Part shown: positions 10,934 to 21,145 of the stretch, piece by piece | How positions within the stretch are numbered: position 1 is the first letter of the stretch | Layout: each line of letters starts with the position of its first letter | Assembly (NCBI GenBank): GCA_013289585.1 | Contig: JABCZR010000001.1 | Coordinates: forward strand, 62,001-126,000 | DNA from: Acidobacteriota bacterium | Lineage (GTDB): Bacteria > Acidobacteriota > Terriglobia > Acidiferrales > UBA7541 | Direction of reading: 5' to 3' | Length of the DNA: 64,000 nucleotides | Position numbers and translations under genes: made by a program | The notes under the pieces: model-generated | Database searches by the model: none | Told to the model about the DNA's origin: nothing | What the model saw: only the letters and a program-made list of their open reading frames with translations

Positions 10934-12727
10934 TCAGAAAATATCGGCGTTCTTCAGCGCAATCAGTTTTTCCAGCGTCAAATTCTGAAATCCATGCTTC
11001 TTCGCTTTCTCAATGAACTCGGGCGTGACTCCCATCACCTTGGCCCCGATCAACTCGTCGCAGGTCAAGTCTTTGAATCCCGCCGCCTGCACCGACTTCA
11101 CATACTCCGGGGTGATTCCTTGCACCTTCATGCCGATCAACTCATCGGCATCGGGCTTGAGCCCGGTCGCCCTCATCCCGCGGACGTATTCCGGTGTCAC
11201 GCTCTGCACCTTCATTCCTATCAACTCGTCGGGGCCTGCTTGCAGTCCGAGTTCGCGCATCTCCTGCGCGTATTGAGGAGTGATGCCCTGCACCTTCATC
11301 CCGATCAGTTCGTCCACGGAAGGCTTTGGCGCCACCGTTCTCATTTCGCGAACATATTCCGGCGTAACGCCCTGGACTTTCATTCCCACGATTTCATCCG
11401 CGGTTGGCTGCAATCCCAGATCGCGCATCGCTTTGACGTATTCGGGTGTGACACCCTGAACCTTCATGGCAATCAGCTCATCCACATCGAGGTTCTTGTA
11501 GCCCGCGGCTTCCATCGCGTCCATATAGGATTGTTTGTTGCCGCCGGTCGACGGCTGCGGCTTCGGCGTAGGCTGGCTCGCTGCCGCGGGGGCAGGTTTC
11601 GGAGCTTGTTGGCTGCGTTCCTTTGGGGAGGCAGGTTCCGGCCTCACGACGATCACGCTGCCGCTTTCCTGGATCTCCTTTGAGGGAATGCTGTTCCCCA
11701 GCGACGCGTGCGCTACCCCCAGGAACGCGTTCCCCGCCAGCAGCGCGCCCGCCAGGCAGACAAAACTTACTCCGAGTCCTGCCATGCGCGTCCTCCCTGT
11801 AGCTCCATGCAGTTCCAGCAAACGGACGACGCGCTCCGCCAACGGGCTGCGATTCGCCGCCATCATCAACGCAGGCGCCGCCCTCCACTCTTCCATCAGC
11901 GTAAGAGCCCGCGCGTAATCCACCGCATCCCCGCAAACGGAAATCGCTTCGTCGTCGCAGCAGTGCTCCCTTTCGGCACGAATCCGCTGGCTCACCCACC
12001 ACACCGCCGGGTGATAGAACAGCAGCGTTTCCGCCGCAATCTGGAAAAGATTCACGAAGCAATCCAGTCGCCGGATGTGTGCCAGCTCGTGCGCTATCAC
12101 CGCTTCCAGTTGTTCACCGCTCAGCCCGGTCAGCGCCCGCACCGGCAAGAGCACCAGAGGTCGAATCCAACCCATAACCGCAGGCGCATCCAGCCGGTGA
12201 CACTCGCAATATCGAATGACGCGATCGAGACCCATCTTCCGTTGCAGCGCCGCACATCGTTCGTGCAGCTCTCGCCCCACCGGCCTGATCTCCTTGCGCC
12301 GCATCCGCTCGATCAAGAACAGTCCGCCCGCAGTTCTCAGGCTCAGTAGAACAACGCCCAGGAACCACGCTTCTACCAGCCACAACATCCCCATTTCTGT
12401 TCGCGATGCAGCGGCCGGAGCGCTGGATGGCGCGGCAACTGCCGCTTGCTGCGCCGTCTTTCCCAACCAAGGCAACGTCCCCTGCGCCCCGGACCGCACG
12501 GCCGGATTCGAATCTCTATGCAGCAAGACGAATGTGATCGCCGGTGCCGCCATCATCGCAGCCAGTGTGCCCACCGCCAGCGCGTAACGCGCTGCCGCAC
12601 TCCGGAAAGCCGCCACGGCGACGGCAAACACGGCCGCAAGCGCCGCGCCTTGCCAGATAAAGTGCAGCAAGGTCCAGCCCAACGTCCGCAAAATTTCCGG
12701 CGAGATCCAATTCGCGAAGTTCGTCAT
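10934..12727 (-). CDS. M56-family (BlaR1/MecR1-like) membrane metallopeptidase with C-terminal repeats
   Basis: Integral-membrane zinc peptidase of the BlaR1 type; in known systems the cytoplasmic peptidase destroys or inactivates a BlaI repressor after an outside signal. Transmembrane segments lie near 15-42, 48-68, 114-134 and 316-338. The active site is HELAH (213-217) with downstream Glu in AEREHCCDDEA. Instead of the penicillin-binding sensor of BlaR1, the C terminus has a Pro-rich linker (360-398) and about 6.5 repeats of 28 residues (416-597; core DELIGMKVQGVTPEYVxxMRxxG). This region is homologous to the repeats of the next gene. The start overlaps the blaI stop by 4 bp (ATGA). Confidence 0.9.
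   Translation of the reverse strand: MTNFANWISPEILRTLGWTLLHFIWQGAALAAVFAVAVAAFRSAAARYALAVGTLAAMMAAPAITFVLLHRDSNPAVRSGAQGTLPWLGKTAQQAAVAAPSSAPAAASRTEMGMLWLVEAWFLGVVLLSLRTAGGLFLIERMRRKEIRPVGRELHERCAALQRKMGLDRVIRYCECHRLDAPAVMGWIRPLVLLPVRALTGLSGEQLEAVIAHELAHIRRLDCFVNLFQIAAETLLFYHPAVWWVSQRIRAEREHCCDDEAISVCGDAVDYARALTLMEEWRAAPALMMAANRSPLAERVVRLLELHGATGRTRMAGLGVSFVCLAGALLAGNAFLGVAHASLGNSIPSKEIQESGSVIVVRPEPASPKERSQQAPKPAPAAASQPTPKPQPSTGGNKQSYMDAMEAAGYKNLDVDELIAMKVQGVTPEYVKAMRDLGLQPTADEIVGMKVQGVTPEYVREMRTVAPKPSVDELIGMKVQGITPQYAQEMRELGLQAGPDELIGMKVQSVTPEYVRGMRATGLKPDADELIGMKVQGITPEYVKSVQAAGFKDLTCDELIGAKVMGVTPEFIEKAKKHGFQNLTLEKLIALKNADIF
10937..11482 (-). repeat. Coding tandem repeat array in the M56 peptidase (84-bp units)
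   Basis: Encodes residues 416-597. Units start at DELIAMKV, DEIVGMKV, DELIGMKV (three times), DELIGAKV and a terminal partial EKLIALKN. The 28-residue period is regular. Confidence 0.85.
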
Positions 12728-13113
12728 GGCTTTCTCCCCTCATACTCATCCAGCAGCCTGCGTAGCTCTTCCAGCTCTTTCTTCGACGTCGGCCGTCCCT
12801 CCAGCGCATGAATCATCAATTCGCTCGCAGAGCCTTCAAACACCCGCTGAAGCACATCATCCACAAGCTGGCGCTTCGTTTCCGCGGCCGGCTGACAAGC
12901 TTCGTAGACGTGGGCACGCTGGTCTTCGTTTCTACGCACGGTGCCCTTGGCGGTCATTATTTGCAGGAGTTTTAAAACCGTGGTGTAACCAAGCGACTTC
13001 TGTTCGCTCAACGCCTCATAAACTTCCCGAACGGTGGAAGGCCCACGCGTCCACAAAACGCGCAGGATTTCCAGTTCCGAGGCCGTTGGCTTTTGAAGAG
13101 GTTCGTGTGCCAT
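12724..13113 (-). CDS. BlaI/MecI-family transcriptional repressor
   Basis: Winged-helix repressor of 129 residues, the normal size. The N-terminal DNA-binding domain (about 8-80) shows SELEILRVLWTRGPSTVREV and GYTTVLKLLQIMTAKG; the C-terminal helices (about 85-125) form the dimer region where M56-type peptidases act in characterised systems. It is first in a three-gene operon with an M56 peptidase (4-bp overlap) and a repeat protein. Two inverted repeats of the BlaI type lie upstream, one inside the promoter spacer, so autorepression is likely. No strong ribosome site is visible; the predicted transcript has a very short leader. The signal is unknown and no beta-lactamase lies nearby. Confidence 0.93.
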   Translation of the reverse strand: MAHEPLQKPTASELEILRVLWTRGPSTVREVYEALSEQKSLGYTTVLKLLQIMTAKGTVRRNEDQRAHVYEACQPAAETKRQLVDDVLQRVFEGSASELMIHALEGRPTSKKELEELRRLLDEYEGRKP

Positions 13114-14126: not shown

Positions 14127-16919
14127 TCAACTGCATCCGCTCGTGCTGCCGCAATTTTCGCACTTGTAGCACGCGCCGTTCGGCACCATCAGCATCCCGC
14201 ATTCGCTGCACGTCGGCGCGCCTTCATGCGCGTTGGTTGGTTTCAACATCGGCTGAGCCGTCCAATCTTCTCCGCTACCAATCGCCGGAGATGGCACAAG
14301 AGCCGAAGGCTGAGCTTGCGCAGCTGATGCCTGTTCTCCGTTTAGCTTCAGATAGTCCGATGAGATGAACTTCCCGCCCATCCACCGCGCGATGTAATCC
14401 AACACCGAAGAAACAAACCGGATATTCGGATTCGCAGTGATGCCCGATGGCTCGAACCGTGTGTTCAACAGCTTGTCCACGAATACCTTTAGCGGCACGC
14501 CATACTGCAAGCCCAACGAAATGGTCAGCGCCAGACCGTCCACCATGCCGGAAAGCGTCGAGCCTTCCTTGGACATCTTCATGAAGACCTCGCCCGGCCG
14601 GCCATCCTCATACATCCCGACGGTGATGTAGCCTTCGTGCCCCCCCACGCTGAACTTGTGCGTCACCGAAGCGCGCTCCACGGGCATCTTCTCGCGCTGC
14701 ATCCGCGCAAAGAGTTCACGTTGCATGTGTTCCACCACGGCCGCGGCTTCCGTCTTGGTTTCTTCCTTTTTCCCGCCGGCGTTCAGTGGTTGCGAACGCT
14801 TCGAATTGTCGCGGTAGATGGCCACGGCCTTCAGCCCCACCTTCCACGATTCGATGTATGCGTTCATGATGTCTTCGATCGTCGATTCCTCGGGCATGTT
14901 GATGGTCTTCGAAATCGCGCCCGAAAGGAACGGCTGCGCCGCCGCCATCATCTTCACGTGTCCTGTCCAGGTAATCGACCGCCCGCCGCCCTGCGGAGCC
15001 AGCGAGCAATCAAACACTGGATAATCTTCCATCTTCAGGTACGGCGCGCCTTCGATCTTCCCGTTCTTGTCAATGTAGGAAACGATTTCGCTGGTCTGCT
15101 CCGGCGTGTACCCCAGCTTCATCAGCGCTTCCGGCACGGTGTTGTTCACGATCTTGATCAGCCCGCCGCCCACCAACTTCTTGTACTTCACCAGCGCCAG
15201 GTCCGGTTCGATTCCCGTCGTGTCGCAATCCATCATGAAGCCGATGGTGCCCGTCGGCGCCAGCACGGTAACTTGCGAATTCTTGTAGCCGTACTTTTCC
15301 CCGTGCGCCAGCGCCGTGTCCCAGGATTCCTGCGCTCCCATAAACAATTCCGTCTGCACGTGCTCCGGCTTGATCCCGCGCATCGCTTCCCGGTGCATGC
15401 GAATCACGTCCAGCATCGGCTCACGGTTCACTTCGTAGCCCGGGAACGGCCCCATGCGCTCCGCAATGCGCGAAGACTGCGCGTACGCTTCGCCGCACAT
15501 CAGCGCGGTGATTGCGCCAGCCACGTCGCGCCCTTCGTCCGAATCATACGGCAGCGCCATGGACATCAGCAGCGCGCCAAGATTCGCGTAGCCCAGCCCG
15601 AGCGGCCGGAAGCTATGCGAATTCTCCGCGATCTTCGGCGTCGGATAGCTCGCATTGTCCACCAGGATTTCCTGCGCCGTGATGGTCACGTCCACCGCGT
15701 GCTTGAACGCCGGCACATCAAACTGCCCGCTGGCATTCACGAATTTCATCAGGTTCAGCGAAGCCAGGTTGCACGCCGTGTCGTCCAGGAACATGTACTC
15801 GCTGCACGGATTCGAAGCATTGATCCGCGCCGTGTTCTTCGATGTGTGCCAACGGTTGATCGTCGTGTCGTACTGCATCCCCGGATCGCCGCAGCGCCAC
15901 GTCGAATCCGAAATCTTCATCATCAGGTCGCGCGCCCGCAGCTTCTCGTTCGGCTGCCCGTCGAGCACGTTCTTCGTCCACCAGTCCTTGTCCTCCACCA
16001 CCGCGCGCATGAATTCGTCCGTCACGCGCACGGAGTGATTCGCGTTCTGGAAAAAGATTGAGCTATAGGCGTCGCCGTCGATCGAGCTGTCGTAGCCCTG
16101 CTCGATCAGCACGTGCGCCTTGCGCTCTTCTTTCATCTTGCATTCGATGAATTCGACGATGTCCGGGTGATCGATGTTCAGGATCACCATCTTTGCCGCC
16201 CGCCGCGTCTTCCCCCCGCTCTTGATCACGCCTGCGAACGCGTCGAACCCCTTCATGAAGCTCACCGGCCCCGACGCAATCCCGCCGCCCGACAGCGTTT
16301 CCCGGCTCCCGCGCAAACTCGAAAAATTCGTCCCCGTCCCCGAGCCCCACTTGAACAGCATTCCCTCGGTCCGCGTCAGCCCCATGATCGATTCCATGTT
16401 GTCGTGGACCGAGTTGATGAAGCATGCCGAGCACTGCGGCTTCGGCTGCACACCCACGTTGAACCATACCGGCGAATTGAACGCCATCTTTTGCTCGACC
16501 AGCAGGTGCGTCAGTTCATCGCGGAATGCGTCGCGCGATTCCGTGCCCGCAAAATACTTGCACTCTTCGCCCCAGCGCACGATGGTATTCACCACCCGGC
16601 TGATCAGTTGCCGCACCGAGCCTTCGCGTTGGGCGCTCCCGGGCTTCCCGTGAAAATATTTGCTGGTGACGATGTTCGTCGCCGTCTGCGACCAGCTCTT
16701 CGGCACTTCCACGTCTTCCTGGCGGAAGATCGTGACACCCTTCTCATTCCCGATCAGCGCGGTGCGCTTCTCCCATTCCACCAAGTCGAAGGGAGATTTC
16801 TTTCCATCCGTGAAGTACCGCTCGAAAGCCAGACCTTTCACAGCCGCTTCTGTTGTTGTGGCCGGTATCATCTCCGCCGCCACTTCTTTCCCTCTCAGTG
16901 CATGTTTCACAGTCGCCAT
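14127..16919 (-). CDS. nrdJ: NrdJ, adenosylcobalamin-dependent (class II) ribonucleotide reductase
   Basis: Cytoplasmic enzyme that reduces ribonucleotides to deoxyribonucleotides with coenzyme B12 as radical source, needing no oxygen. At 930 residues it is the long form. Visible parts: N-terminal region with FNSPVWFNVG, the CSACFINSV cysteine segment, WGSGTGTNFSSLRG, the active-site NPCSEYMFLDDTACNLASLNL region (Cys and Glu), a LAPTGTIGFMMDCDTTGIEPD loop, a TSCPD-like domain (about 770-860) and a C-terminal zinc ribbon CSECGMLMV/CYKCENCG. Start ATG has GCGGAGGA upstream. A TAAAAT at 16973-16968 is a possible -10; I see no cobalamin riboswitch in the leader. Confidence 0.95.
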   Translation of the reverse strand: MATVKHALRGKEVAAEMIPATTTEAAVKGLAFERYFTDGKKSPFDLVEWEKRTALIGNEKGVTIFRQEDVEVPKSWSQTATNIVTSKYFHGKPGSAQREGSVRQLISRVVNTIVRWGEECKYFAGTESRDAFRDELTHLLVEQKMAFNSPVWFNVGVQPKPQCSACFINSVHDNMESIMGLTRTEGMLFKWGSGTGTNFSSLRGSRETLSGGGIASGPVSFMKGFDAFAGVIKSGGKTRRAAKMVILNIDHPDIVEFIECKMKEERKAHVLIEQGYDSSIDGDAYSSIFFQNANHSVRVTDEFMRAVVEDKDWWTKNVLDGQPNEKLRARDLMMKISDSTWRCGDPGMQYDTTINRWHTSKNTARINASNPCSEYMFLDDTACNLASLNLMKFVNASGQFDVPAFKHAVDVTITAQEILVDNASYPTPKIAENSHSFRPLGLGYANLGALLMSMALPYDSDEGRDVAGAITALMCGEAYAQSSRIAERMGPFPGYEVNREPMLDVIRMHREAMRGIKPEHVQTELFMGAQESWDTALAHGEKYGYKNSQVTVLAPTGTIGFMMDCDTTGIEPDLALVKYKKLVGGGLIKIVNNTVPEALMKLGYTPEQTSEIVSYIDKNGKIEGAPYLKMEDYPVFDCSLAPQGGGRSITWTGHVKMMAAAQPFLSGAISKTINMPEESTIEDIMNAYIESWKVGLKAVAIYRDNSKRSQPLNAGGKKEETKTEAAAVVEHMQRELFARMQREKMPVERASVTHKFSVGGHEGYITVGMYEDGRPGEVFMKMSKEGSTLSGMVDGLALTISLGLQYGVPLKVFVDKLLNTRFEPSGITANPNIRFVSSVLDYIARWMGGKFISSDYLKLNGEQASAAQAQPSALVPSPAIGSGEDWTAQPMLKPTNAHEGAPTCSECGMLMVPNGACYKCENCGSTSGCS

Positions 16920-17068
16920 CCGATTCCTCCGCGCTTTCGGGCTCCCACTCGCGCGGGGAACCCCTTCATTTTACTCCTCTGCGCGCCGCAGAGTCGCCAC
17001 GCTTCGCTTCAAGGTCTGGATTGAAGCAACCGTGGCTTGATTCGTTCCCTTCGTGAAAGCCGCCATCG

Positions 17069-17096
17069 AAAAAAAAGCCGATCGCCTTGCGATCGC
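17069..17096 (-). terminator. Rho-independent terminator of the ncRNA
   Basis: On the minus strand CGATCGC-AAG-GCGATCG forms a 7-bp stem followed by GC and eight T residues (17076-17069). No minus-strand protein gene lies upstream within 700 bp, so the terminator must serve a non-coding transcript. Confidence 0.8.
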
Positions 17097-17313
17097 CCTT
17101 AAAGTCCCGGCCCAAACGCCAATGCTCTGCCGCTGGCTGGTGGGTCGCACACAGCCTCACAGCAGGTGCCGCGCCTCAAATGCGGGCGCGGAGCAGGTAC
17201 TTCGCGCTCGGTTTTTTTGCTTAGAGCCCGGGCCGACTTCGTGGCTACGAACGGACCTAACAGGTTCCCCGACTCGGTCCGTCTGGCGCTTCCACGTCCC
17301 CCGAATCTGGACT
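17069..17313 (-). ncRNA. Candidate structured non-coding RNA of about 240 nt with own promoter and terminator
   Basis: No gene fits this interval, yet the minus strand has a promoter (see 17317-17345) and a terminator (17069-17096). Within it the ends pair: AGTCC (17313-17309) with GGACT (17107-17103), then AAGCGCCA (17291-17284) with TGGCGTTT (17121-17114), 8 bp with one G-U. Internal hairpins include ACGGACC/GGTCCGT (17282-17251) and CCGCGCC/GGCGCGG (17191-17169). A closed-end multi-stem RNA of this size resembles housekeeping RNAs such as 6S, but I do not find the conserved bases of SRP RNA, RNase P, tmRNA or a riboswitch. Class unknown. Confidence 0.6.
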
Positions 17314-17316
17314 CGA

Positions 17317-17345
17317 AGTATCAACGGATGTAAATTTCCTGTCAA
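17317..17345 (-). promoter_or_regulatory. Promoter of the ncRNA
   Basis: Minus strand TTGACA (17345-17340), 17-bp spacer, GATACT (17322-17317; 4 of 6 consensus). Predicted start near 17311. Confidence 0.6.
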
Positions 17346-17479
17346 GAGAAAAACGCTAAATGTGGTTGACGTTTACGTACTGTGTCTATTTGTAGTGGTG
17401 CTCTTTCTGCATAACCGCCTTCGTTGCAACACTTTTCACTTCTTCCATCGTCGGCTACAATTTTTGCATCCAATCCATT

Positions 17480-18109
17480 ATGAAACGGTTTCGCTTTCTC
17501 CTCTTTCTCGTTTTTTTCCTCTTCGCGCCTCTTCTTCTTTGCGCTCAGCAACCTCGGCTTCCCGCTCCTCCTTCCGAAATGCATTCGGCCTACGGCGAAA
17601 AACTTCGCATCCCCTTTATTCCCAACAGCGGCAAAGTGAATGATCATTTCTACCGCGGCGCCCAACCCAAAGCCGATGGTCTCGCCGAACTCAAAAAACT
17701 CGGCATCAGCACCGTCGTTGACCTCCGCCTCGAAGATCCCGCAAAAATCCTCTGGGAACGCCAGCAGGTCGAGGCCCTGGGGATGCGCTTCGTCAATATC
17801 CCCGTCAATGAGTGGTCCCCGCCGACCAACGAACAGGTGGTTCAATTTCTCTCCCTCTTCCGCGAAGATCCGGCTCAAAAAATATTTGTCCACTGCCATT
17901 TCGGCGAAGACCGCACCGGCATCTTCGTGGCTACCTATCGCATGGCCTTCGAAAAGTGGCCGAGCGAGCAAGCCTTGAACGAGATGTATTTCTTCGGCTT
18001 CAACGGTCTCTGGCATCCCTCCATGAAATCCTTCATCCATGATTTTCCCGCTCGCTTGCATGCCGCCCCGGCCCTCGCGTCCCTCGCCACTCCTTCTCGC
18101 CAGCCTTAA
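17480..18109 (+). CDS. Secreted dual-specificity/tyrosine phosphatase-like protein
   Basis: Cys-based phosphatase fold with an export signal (1-22, ending LLLCAQQ). The body shows the DSP pattern: FYRGAQP (60s), TVVDLRLED, then the P-loop HCHFGEDRTG with catalytic Cys139 and Arg145, matching HCxxGxxR. An Asp/Glu-rich loop before it could give the general acid. Being exported, its substrate is more likely an envelope phosphoester or secreted protein than a cytoplasmic phosphoprotein. Start ATG has little ribosome site; the gene is divergent from the ncRNA candidate. The C terminus (from about 190) is Ala/Ser-rich and probably disordered. Confidence 0.85.
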   Translation: MKRFRFLLFLVFFLFAPLLLCAQQPRLPAPPSEMHSAYGEKLRIPFIPNSGKVNDHFYRGAQPKADGLAELKKLGISTVVDLRLEDPAKILWERQQVEALGMRFVNIPVNEWSPPTNEQVVQFLSLFREDPAQKIFVHCHFGEDRTGIFVATYRMAFEKWPSEQALNEMYFFGFNGLWHPSMKSFIHDFPARLHAAPALASLATPSRQP

Positions 18110-18653: not shown

Positions 18654-19544
18654 GTGCAAGTCGGACGCTACGAAATTCTCGAAATCATCGGCACCGGTGC
18701 CACTGGCCGCGTCGCACGCGCCCACGATCCCATGATCGGCCGCCAGGTAGCCATCAAGCTTTTCGCCAAGGAACTCGCGCGCGGTGAAGCCCGCCAGCGC
18801 TTCCTGCAGGAAGCACGCGTCGTCGGCCAGCTCTCGCATCCTTCGATTATCGCGCTCCACGACATGGGCATCGAAGAAGCGACCCAAACACCTTATCTGG
18901 TTATGGAATTCCTAGAAGGCCAGCCGCTCGATCGCATCCTCGAAAGGGGAAGCATCCCTTACCCGCGTGCTTGCGCTATCGTAGCGGAAGTCGCCTGTGC
19001 GCTCGGCGCTGCGCACCGCAAGGGCGTCATTCACGGGGACGTTAAGCCCGCAAACATCCTTATCACCGACGACGGCCGCGTGAAGCTCATGGACTTCGGA
19101 ATGGCGCGCCTCTCCAGCCACGATACCGGCACCACCCCGCTTTTGGGCACCCCTGCCTACTGGTGCCCCGAGCAGATCATGGGCAAGCCGCAAGACGCGC
19201 GCTCCGATCTCTTTTCGCTTGGCGTTGTGCTCTACGAATTGGTCACTGGCAAGCGTCCATTTGACGCGGATTCTCTTCAAGCCATCTGTGGCCGCGTGCT
19301 TTCTTCCACGCCGCTTCCGCCGTCGCACGCGAATCCTTCGGTGCCTACCGGGTTCGATGAAGTGGTAGCCCGCTGCCTGGCAAAGGATCCCATCGCGCGC
19401 TATGGCGTAGGCGAAACGCTCGCGGAAGATCTCTATCCCTTCGCGCGCCGCAAGACGGTTCCCCAGTCTTCGCCACAATCCGTCGGCAATGGCAACGGTA
19501 ACGGCCTGCGTGACCGCGCCGCGCGCCTTCTTCGTTCCGCCTGA
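18654..19544 (+). CDS. Serine/threonine protein kinase (PknB-like, non-RD)
   Basis: Cytoplasmic Hanks-type kinase domain filling most of 296 residues. Glycine loop GTGATGRV (13-20), VAIK with Lys35, catalytic loop HGDVKPANIL with Asp129, DFG at 147-149, GTPAYWCPEQ, and DLFSLGVVLYELVTGKRPF. The usual Arg of HRD is Gly128, making it a non-RD kinase that may not need activation-loop phosphorylation. There is no membrane segment or sensor domain; the C terminus is a short Asn/Gly-rich tail. Start is GTG at 18654 with GGGAGAGG upstream. Its stop overlaps the next kinase start (TGATG), so the two are co-translated. Confidence 0.9.
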   Translation: MQVGRYEILEIIGTGATGRVARAHDPMIGRQVAIKLFAKELARGEARQRFLQEARVVGQLSHPSIIALHDMGIEEATQTPYLVMEFLEGQPLDRILERGSIPYPRACAIVAEVACALGAAHRKGVIHGDVKPANILITDDGRVKLMDFGMARLSSHDTGTTPLLGTPAYWCPEQIMGKPQDARSDLFSLGVVLYELVTGKRPFDADSLQAICGRVLSSTPLPPSHANPSVPTGFDEVVARCLAKDPIARYGVGETLAEDLYPFARRKTVPQSSPQSVGNGNGNGLRDRAARLLRSA

Positions 19545-21145
19545 TGATCACCCTATCAAAGGACCGCTACGAACCCCTGGGTCACCTGGGTTCCGGGGCC
19601 ACGAGCCGCGTCGAAAAAGCGCGCGATACCGTCATCGGAAGAACCGTCGCCCTCAAAACCTTTTTGAATAGTTTCGGTAAAGGGATCGAAGAACAATTCC
19701 TTCGCGAAGCGCAGATCATCGGCCAGCTTTCTGATCCGTGCATCGTTCAGTTGTACGACGTCGGAATCGACGAGCAGGGCACTCCTTTCCTGGTGATGGA
19801 GTACGTCGCCGGCAAAACGCTGGAAGAGAAACTTGATCCGTCGGTCCTGACCACTCAGCGGACCTGCGCCTGGGCCGCCGATTTAGCCGGCGCTCTCGCA
19901 CTCGCCCATCGCGCCGGAATCATTCACGGCGACGTCAAACCCGGCAACATTCTGGTCACCGCGGAAAACAAGGTGAAACTCGGCGACTTTGGTATCGCGC
20001 GCTTTGCTTCCCAGATTTCCGGCTCCGGCAACCTGATGGGCACGCCGGCCTATCTGGCCCCTGAACAGATTCAGGGCGAACCACAAAATCCGCTTTCGGA
20101 TCAATTTGCTCTTGGTGTGGTTCTCTATCAGTTGCTGACGGGTCAAAGGCCGTTCGATGGTAGTTCTGTTGGCGCCGTGTGCGCTCAGATTCTAAATGCC
20201 GAGCCTGTGCCGCCTTCGCAGCACAATCCGGCGGTTCCCGCGGCGCTGGATCGCATCGTTGCACGGTGCCTGGCAAAAAATCCCAAGGACCGTTTCACCG
20301 ACTGCCACAAACTCGCTTCTGCTCTTTATCCCCTCGCGCGTTCGAGCACTTCCTCCGTGGCGCCGAAAACCAGGAACAGCTTCTGGTGGTCGAAGCCCGG
20401 CGGCCAGCGCGACGTCTGGATCACCGCCGCTGTTTGTTTGCTTCTCGCAGCTTCGATTCCGGCATCCCGTTTCTTCCGCGCCAAGTTCGAAGCTCACCCC
20501 GTTCCTCCGATCCATTTCTCGCCGCCAGAAGTGCCAGTGGAAGCCTTCAACCATTCAGTAACGCCAGCGGCAGAAGCAGCTCATCCAGTCGCCGCGGATG
20601 AGACCGTCACACAACTCGCCGACCGGCACGTCGTCCATCGGGCGAAGCTACTTGCGGTTCCCACGAAGCAAACCGGTGATTCTCAAGGCTTCCAAAGGAA
20701 TGCCTCTCCTCCTCCGGCCTCGTCTGTGGCGCTGTCATCCGAATCCGCGGCCCAGCCTGCCCCCGCTTCCAGCCTGCATATTGAGATCACTTCCACGGTA
20801 ACCGAAGGCACTTTGGCTGTTTTTGCGGATCGCGAACTACTCTTCACTACAAACTTTGTCACGCTCACGCCGGGCGAGCCAATTCGGTTTGAACATACGC
20901 TTCCCACCGGACCGCATCAATTTCGTGTAGCCCTTTACAAACCGGACAAGACTCTCCGTTTGGAGAAAGAAGGTCTGGCGGAGATTCGTCCGGACGGGGC
21001 AAACACCCTGGCAGTTCATGTAAATCATCGTTCCAAACTGCTCGTCCGCCACGAGTTCACCATGGAGGTCACCTGGCCAGCGGGATCGGCCACGGGTTCT
21101 GAACGCGCCGACGCGACGCTGAAATCCTCTGCCTTGATGAAGTAA
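19544..21145 (+). CDS. Serine/threonine protein kinase with C-terminal membrane anchor and beta domain (non-RD)
   Basis: Second kinase of the pair, 533 residues. Kinase domain 9-265: GSGATSRV, VALK with Lys38, HGDVKPGNIL (Asp130, again Gly in place of Arg), DFG 148-150, APEQ, DQFALGVVLYQLLTGQRPF. One transmembrane segment (291-307) puts the rest outside: a Pro/Ala-rich linker and a C-terminal beta-rich region (about 405-515; ITSTVTEGTLAVFADRELLF, FEHTLPTGPHQFRVALY) of PEGA-like look. The kinase could sense an envelope signal through this region, possibly controlling the soluble kinase encoded just before (inference). Overlaps its neighbour by one base. Confidence 0.9.
   Translation: MITLSKDRYEPLGHLGSGATSRVEKARDTVIGRTVALKTFLNSFGKGIEEQFLREAQIIGQLSDPCIVQLYDVGIDEQGTPFLVMEYVAGKTLEEKLDPSVLTTQRTCAWAADLAGALALAHRAGIIHGDVKPGNILVTAENKVKLGDFGIARFASQISGSGNLMGTPAYLAPEQIQGEPQNPLSDQFALGVVLYQLLTGQRPFDGSSVGAVCAQILNAEPVPPSQHNPAVPAALDRIVARCLAKNPKDRFTDCHKLASALYPLARSSTSSVAPKTRNSFWWSKPGGQRDVWITAAVCLLLAASIPASRFFRAKFEAHPVPPIHFSPPEVPVEAFNHSVTPAAEAAHPVAADETVTQLADRHVVHRAKLLAVPTKQTGDSQGFQRNASPPPASSVALSSESAAQPAPASSLHIEITSTVTEGTLAVFADRELLFTTNFVTLTPGEPIRFEHTLPTGPHQFRVALYKPDKTLRLEKEGLAEIRPDGANTLAVHVNHRSKLLVRHEFTMEVTWPAGSATGSERADATLKSSALMK

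Follow-up and report, generated by a model that had tools for sequence, protein, structure and literature searches.

Ribonucleotide reductase provides the cell with its DNA precursors, and few RNA elements that control this enzyme are named in Rfam and in the papers that we searched. Hence, what is the role of an apparently non-coding and strongly structured minus-strand interval of an acidobacterial genome that is flanked by nrdJ (14127-16919) on one side and by a divergent phosphatase-like gene (17480-18109) on the other? A reading of the bare sequence had described this interval as an orphan RNA with its own promoter and intrinsic terminator that resembles 6S RNA in size and closed ends. 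We re-assessed it in a window of 64,000 nt (JABCZR010000001.1, positions 62,001-126,000; assembly GCA_013289585.1), the whole stretch of DNA that was analysed; all feature coordinates count from window position 1.

The nrdJ locus and the window copy of the RNA

The structured RNA, about 240 nt in length, occupies approximately positions 17312-17069 of the minus strand, directly upstream of nrdJ, whose predicted product can be assigned with confidence to the class II reductases. The gene on the far side of the RNA, transcribed divergently from the plus strand, encodes a dual-specificity phosphatase-like protein (PF22741). The features of the locus are as follows.

17383-17398, minus strand: NrdR-box-like site 1, CCACTACAAATAGACA, with C at position 4 and G at position 13; 10/16 matches to the consensus used for scoring
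17353-17368, minus strand: NrdR-box-like site 2, CAACCACATTTAGCGT, 30 bp from site 1 with a 14-bp spacer; 10/16 matches to the consensus used for scoring
17317-17345, minus strand: distal promoter of the sigma-70 type, TTGACA-17-GATACT, which hardly varies across the genus alignment
17102-17315, minus strand: conserved structured RNA core (model R1); the window copy scores 229.6 bits
17223-17308, minus strand: domain I, in which helix P1 encloses hairpins P2 and P3
17308-17300 with 17232-17223, minus strand: P1, the outer helix of domain I
17299-17285, minus strand: P2, a GNRA-type hairpin inside P1
17281-17276 with 17257-17252, minus strand: P3, a covarying hairpin inside P1
17108-17208, minus strand: domain II with P4, P5 and P6 (coordinates mapped by hand)
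17208-17201 with about 17115-17108, minus strand: P4 (mapped by hand)
about 17195-17167, minus strand: P5 hairpin (mapped by hand)
about 17164-17128, minus strand: P6 hairpin, consisting of two helices (mapped by hand)
17069-17095, minus strand: predicted intrinsic terminator, a 7-bp stem (17095-17079) followed by T8
16968-16973, minus strand: second -10-like element TAAAAT, a possible nrdJ promoter, within a further conserved element (16920-16979); the hexamer recurs before nrdJ
16926-16964, minus strand: hairpin-forming stretch (identified by eye) up to the Shine-Dalgarno sequence GGAGG before nrdJ
14127-16919, minus strand: nrdJ, vitamin-B12-dependent (class II) ribonucleotide reductase (NF005122, 1424.5 bits; TIGR02504, 599 bits; PF02867, PF08471)

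Several properties ascribed to the interval by the sequence-only reading were recovered. The proposed promoter is present and scores 10/12, with two promoter-like sites in the surrounding 2.5-kb region versus 0.7 expected by chance. The predicted folding energy of the minus strand is -113.7 kcal/mol (z = -3.24), and not one of 200 shuffled sequences was equally stable, in keeping with the strong structure that had been claimed. The terminator stem and its T8 tract are likewise found, about 220 bases downstream of the promoter, but terminator-like matches occur in the region at a frequency near chance (four versus 2.7 expected). The pairing of the RNA ends (AGTCC/GGACT) appears in the fold of the window copy but is not shared by its relatives. 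The description of the stretch as free of reading frames holds only in part: mechanical open reading frames of 62 and 64 amino acids are present on the same strand (17157-17345 and 16966-17160), but none that is preceded by a Shine-Dalgarno-like stretch is common to all 29 genus copies described below. We rejected a conserved leader peptide: some of the 29 copies lack any reading frame of at least 12 codons with such a stretch, and where one is present, its place differs between copies.

Two further gene pairs in the vicinity gave scores under curated cut-offs, a BlaI/BlaR1-like regulator pair (10934-13113, minus strand), whose BlaR1-like member has repeats such as ELIGMKVQGVTPEYV at its C terminus, and two tandem PknB-type serine/threonine kinases (18654-21145, plus strand) downstream of the phosphatase gene.

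Conservation, covariation and comparison with known RNAs

DNA matches to the interval were found in 29 of 61 genomes, the source genome counted, and all of them belong to one genus of uncultured soil bacteria, which appears to represent the lineage of Candidatus Acidiferrum. A covariance model with 214 positions (R1), built from 12 copies, matched 30 of the 36 genus genomes, each with at least 82.9 bits and each upstream of nrdJ. Under search filters that were stricter than usual, so that weak matches can be lost, and with 15 candidates scored per genome, the best score among 115 genomes of other relatives was an unconvincing 19.2 bits, and nothing exceeded this value at places other than nrdJ in 151 genomes. 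The six genus genomes without an R1 match comprise two without an nrdJ match at E<=1e-50 (G003, G007), two with just the C-terminal part of nrdJ (G022, G029), one in which the contig edge is reached before the nrdJ upstream region (G026), and one (G033) in which box-like sites and a promoter precede nrdJ but the leader, about 380 nt long, has diverged further. When one genome per species was searched for the exact pattern of the 5' part of the RNA, 22 records were recovered; the titles of 21 name Acidobacteria, Terriglobia or Candidatus Acidiferrum, and the remaining one, titled Betaproteobacteria, may correspond to the same-genus locus L013. Viral contigs did not contain this pattern. The RNA carries a near-invariant 5' segment, CCAGATTCGGGGG, and near-invariant unpaired segments. 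The distance from the end of the core to the nrdJ start codon is 142-340 nt.

The sequence-only reading had proposed an alignment of relatives as a check for compensatory changes, and this alignment spoke for a conserved structure. With the 29 copies in a model-guided alignment, pairing held in 90.3% of 1431 cells and 24 of the 50 modelled pairs changed on both sides; these counts lean towards the structure, since the alignment was fitted to it, and are not independent, since the aligned sequences are related. None of 500 shuffles reached the observed values on any of five measures, and sliding the partners by one to three columns yielded at most 12 pairs with changes on both sides. Such changes affect five of six pairs in P3, six of eight in P4 (a helix that has weakened in the copy from the window), five of eight in P5, seven of 14 in the two helices of P6 and one of five in P2; P1 is 93.3% paired and shows compensatory changes in none of its nine pairs. 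RNAalifold, applied to an unfitted alignment, returned a smaller structure of 21 pairs, seven of them with compensatory changes. The AGTCC/GGACT closing stem was rejected as a conserved feature, being absent from the alignment of the relatives. As judged from these comparisons, the best-supported structure consists of two domains without a conserved closing stem.

Could such a fold have arisen by chance in an intergenic region? The terminator match, taken by itself, is near expectation and would fit this view, which is contradicted by the conservation and the covariation of the RNA; the feature exceeds chance because it is conserved in relatives, and we regard a chance structure as practically negligible.

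It is nearly as improbable that the RNA is a diverged copy of a known one. A search with the Rfam covariance models, also suggested by the sequence-only reading, gave no match at the gathering score anywhere in the window (Rfam 15), and a permissive search of the interval returned only P26, on the other strand and with an E value of 0.68. tmRNA, RNase P RNA and SRP RNA were each located elsewhere in the genome. The RNase P RNA match (G000:C19:64635-65293) covers 659 bases versus a model of 367 positions, suggesting a large insertion.

6S RNA folds into one long hairpin with a central bubble. The RNA studied here recalls it in its length, its many hairpins and the closed ends of the window copy, but its supported helices form two domains rather than one closed hairpin, and the resemblance does not extend to a conserved closing stem. 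There is no match to RF00013 in the window, and the genome contains a separate 6S candidate. This candidate lies on the same contig as the window (G000:C1:389084-389309) and is below the cut-off (30.4 versus 46.4 bits). Scores over the cut-off were obtained in nine of the 36 genus genomes (the source genome not among them) and never on the contig of the nrdJ leader. The genus 6S matches mostly measure 211-228 nt, and 6S RNA seems to be diverged in this lineage.

Three RNAs deserve comparison on account of their gene context. The nrdJ motif (RF03034) reportedly stems from the 2017 survey by Weinberg et al. One report (PMC8079986) mentions it as preceding nrdJ in Streptomyces lividans, a linkage that the RNA described here recalls. 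Its model has 80 positions, in contrast to the 214 positions and two domains found here, and it matched neither the window nor, at E<=10, the source genome; it exceeded its cut-off in none of 41 genomes, in a search that lacked a positive control, since none of the 14 control genomes passed either. Cobalamin riboswitches act upstream of the Streptomyces nrdABS genes and share with our leader the context of a B12-linked ribonucleotide reductase and the design of a leader with an expression platform. Unlike them, the leader does not match RF00174, whose two canonical copies in the genome both reside on contig C4, none being found at the leader locus on contig C1. The 2'-deoxyguanosine riboswitch, a small purine-type aptamer, is linked to a ribonucleotide reductase gene and likewise represents a leader able to end transcription early, but the leader studied here has no Rfam match. 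Structured RNAs of Acidobacteria have been reported before, namely Acido-1 (RF01686) and Acido-Lenti-1 (RF01687) in PMC2864571; the window holds no match to them at the Rfam cut-offs. A description of the RNA was not found in the titles or abstract openings of the open-licence papers that we searched. Collectively, comparative sequence analysis shows that the RNA represents a genuine structured family within a single acidobacterial genus and has no counterpart in Rfam 15; to this extent the sequence-only reading, which saw a structured RNA equipped with a promoter and a terminator, is supported.

NrdR-box-like sites at the distal promoter

NrdR is a sensor of dATP and ATP. Two studies describe it as a repressor of ribonucleotide reductase genes (PMC9110341, PMC12051234) that recognises pairs of boxes separated by about three turns of the helix, with spacers of 14-17 bp permitting binding and those of 15-17 bp being best (PMC12051234); each box contains conserved GC pairs nine positions apart (PMC9110341). 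Upstream of the -35 element of the distal promoter we found two NrdR-box-like sites offset by 30 bp, each with the C and G nine positions apart; the spacer between them, 14 bp, is the shortest that permits binding. The score of this box pair was reached by one of 100 shuffles. The exact box-pair pattern of the lineage occurs once in the genome, at this place, and the genome encodes NrdR (G000:C22:68757-69197; 199.6 bits).

To place these sites in a wider context, we used the nrdJ upstream regions of the family, in which 78 of 89 genomes contain nrdJ. The set of 76 regions consists of the 29 genus loci, one region from each of 45 family genomes outside the genus (nrdJ was matched in 46 of these, of which G107 was not taken), G033 and G005; G026 was left out on account of its contig end. 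Promoters were picked permissively (TTGACA plus three of six positions in the -10 element), and a promoter call was absent in one region of the leader set and in two of the box-pair set, which leaves 75 leaders and 74 regions for box pairs. Searched at offsets of 30-32 bp only and among related species, the best box pair was matched by at most five of 100 shuffles in 69 of the 74 regions, and in 72 of the 74 it stands 53-55 or 64-66 bp upstream of the -35 element. The first-box pattern was present in 58 of the 74 regions versus 10 of 1520 shuffled stretches. Box pairs thus recur before nrdJ in the other genera of the family; three of the five regions from genus g32 contain, at a place similar to that of site 1, a near-consensus first box (15/16) in the form ACACTATATATAGCGT, and box-like sites were seen by eye at L012 and L198. 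The sequence features of an NrdR regulon are therefore assembled here, i.e., paired boxes, a spacer within the range, the promoter of a ribonucleotide reductase gene and an NrdR gene, with boxes that are degenerate in the genus. The distal promoter is probably under NrdR control.

The leader region and its possible modes of action

Each of the 29 loci has nrdJ as the next gene downstream of the RNA and in the same orientation, and G005 provides a thirtieth case. Contrary to its description as an orphan, the RNA most likely belongs to nrdJ as a leader that starts from a promoter with NrdR-box-like sites. Linkage alone is no proof of an action in cis, because the phosphatase gene is syntenic as well, being found beside the RNA in 24 of the 29 loci.

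A comparable arrangement is found in many of the other-genus regions that we read, some of them in part: box-like sites, a TTGACA promoter, a leader, a hairpin with a U-tract, a -10-like hexamer and nrdJ. The leaders in these regions are about 160-380 nt long. By a loose rule, 55 of the 75 contain a terminator-like site, versus 26.4 in dinucleotide shuffles (25 of 31 leaders in the genus and 30 of 44 outside it). Among the 29 genus copies, 24 pass and five fail (L016, L020, L026, L027, L029); the diverged G033 leader and those of g32 (0/5) and g33 (0/1) do not pass this rule either. Of the 16 leaders from g24, 15 have the site at nt 150-162. Beyond it, a -10-like hexamer lies 30-130 bp before nrdJ in 56 of the 76 regions versus 4.1 expected from mononucleotide shuffles, mostly about 50-110 bp (51-107 bp) from the start codon, and reads TAAAAT, TATAAT, TACAAT or TATACT depending on the genus, as a -10 element would vary. 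A matching -35 element was not apparent by eye. R1 does not recognise the leaders of other genera; position and short common segments, CAGAYTCGGGG and CCGGGTTCA-like partners, suggest rather than statistically demonstrate a common descent beyond the genus. A conserved structured RNA thus lies between a probable NrdR-controlled promoter and nrdJ throughout the genus, with comparable leaders in much of the family.

From the conservation, the covariation, the nrdJ linkage, the box-like sites and the hairpin-plus-U-tract sites, all of them computed, we lean, with modest confidence, towards the RNA being the structured first part, about 240 nt in length, of the nrdJ transcript, i.e., an attenuator-type leader that starts at an NrdR-controlled promoter and ends in an intrinsic terminator. 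NrdR would control the frequency with which transcripts start at the distal promoter, the fold adopted by the leader would determine whether polymerase stops at the terminator or reads through into nrdJ, and the second -10-like element just before nrdJ may provide basal expression. Both termination at this site and a regulated choice would be part of such a mechanism, and a cobamide, the cofactor of the enzyme, or a deoxynucleotide would be the obvious candidates for the signal. Against this reading stand the looseness of the terminator test, with its considerable expectation in shuffles and the leaders that fail it, and the -10-like element past the terminator, which would allow nrdJ expression without the leader.

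The same element is the main support for a somewhat unlikely alternative, an NrdR-regulated small RNA that ends at the terminator and acts in trans on other mRNAs or on a protein, with nrdJ being expressed from the second promoter. The position of the terminator before nrdJ, the extensive structure and the near-invariant 5' segment would all suit such an RNA; the lack of a visible -35 element at the second promoter and of any strong copy away from nrdJ would not, and NrdR, described as a repressor of ribonucleotide reductase genes in PMC9110341 and PMC12051234, fits better with a promoter serving nrdJ.

An attenuator-type leader might be expected to form competing structures. Two switch-like rival helices (5'-arm/3'-arm and CGTGG/CCACG) pair in 83-86% of cells and in most copies, but their pairing was reached by 206 and 161 of 500 shuffles, respectively, and neither shows covariation. 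This counts against the leader reading and would be in accord with a structured 5' untranslated region that acts constitutively, its role being no more than to shield the mRNA or adjust translation, with leaky termination and no switching, as would the 20 of 75 leaders in which the terminator-like site is missing. We consider this view unlikely: near-invariant unpaired segments and a fixed terminator position within g24 exceed the needs of stability, and the core ends well before the nrdJ start codon.

A bolder form of the leader reading, possible but doubtful, holds that the RNA represents a new riboswitch class of a single acidobacterial lineage, responding to a cobamide or a deoxynucleotide and gating nrdJ transcription downstream of NrdR. 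It is consistent with what is found in the genus, namely the leader of a related gene with a conserved structure and a terminator-like site that is frequent but not universal. If it were true, a single gene would integrate the dATP/ATP signal through a protein repressor with a second signal through an RNA. The leader offers a defined and testable case of two-layer control, and the collected copies a sequence set for a riboswitch screen. With respect to a possible switch, we compared duplexes between the U-tract and the A-rich strand that precedes domain II. The own partners had no advantage in g25 and g27 and a small one in g23; in g1 and g24, the mean duplex energy of the own partners was -13.1 and -13.4, respectively, versus about -10 for partners exchanged across genera and -12.0 in both after swaps within the genus, a hint only that these two strands may pair.
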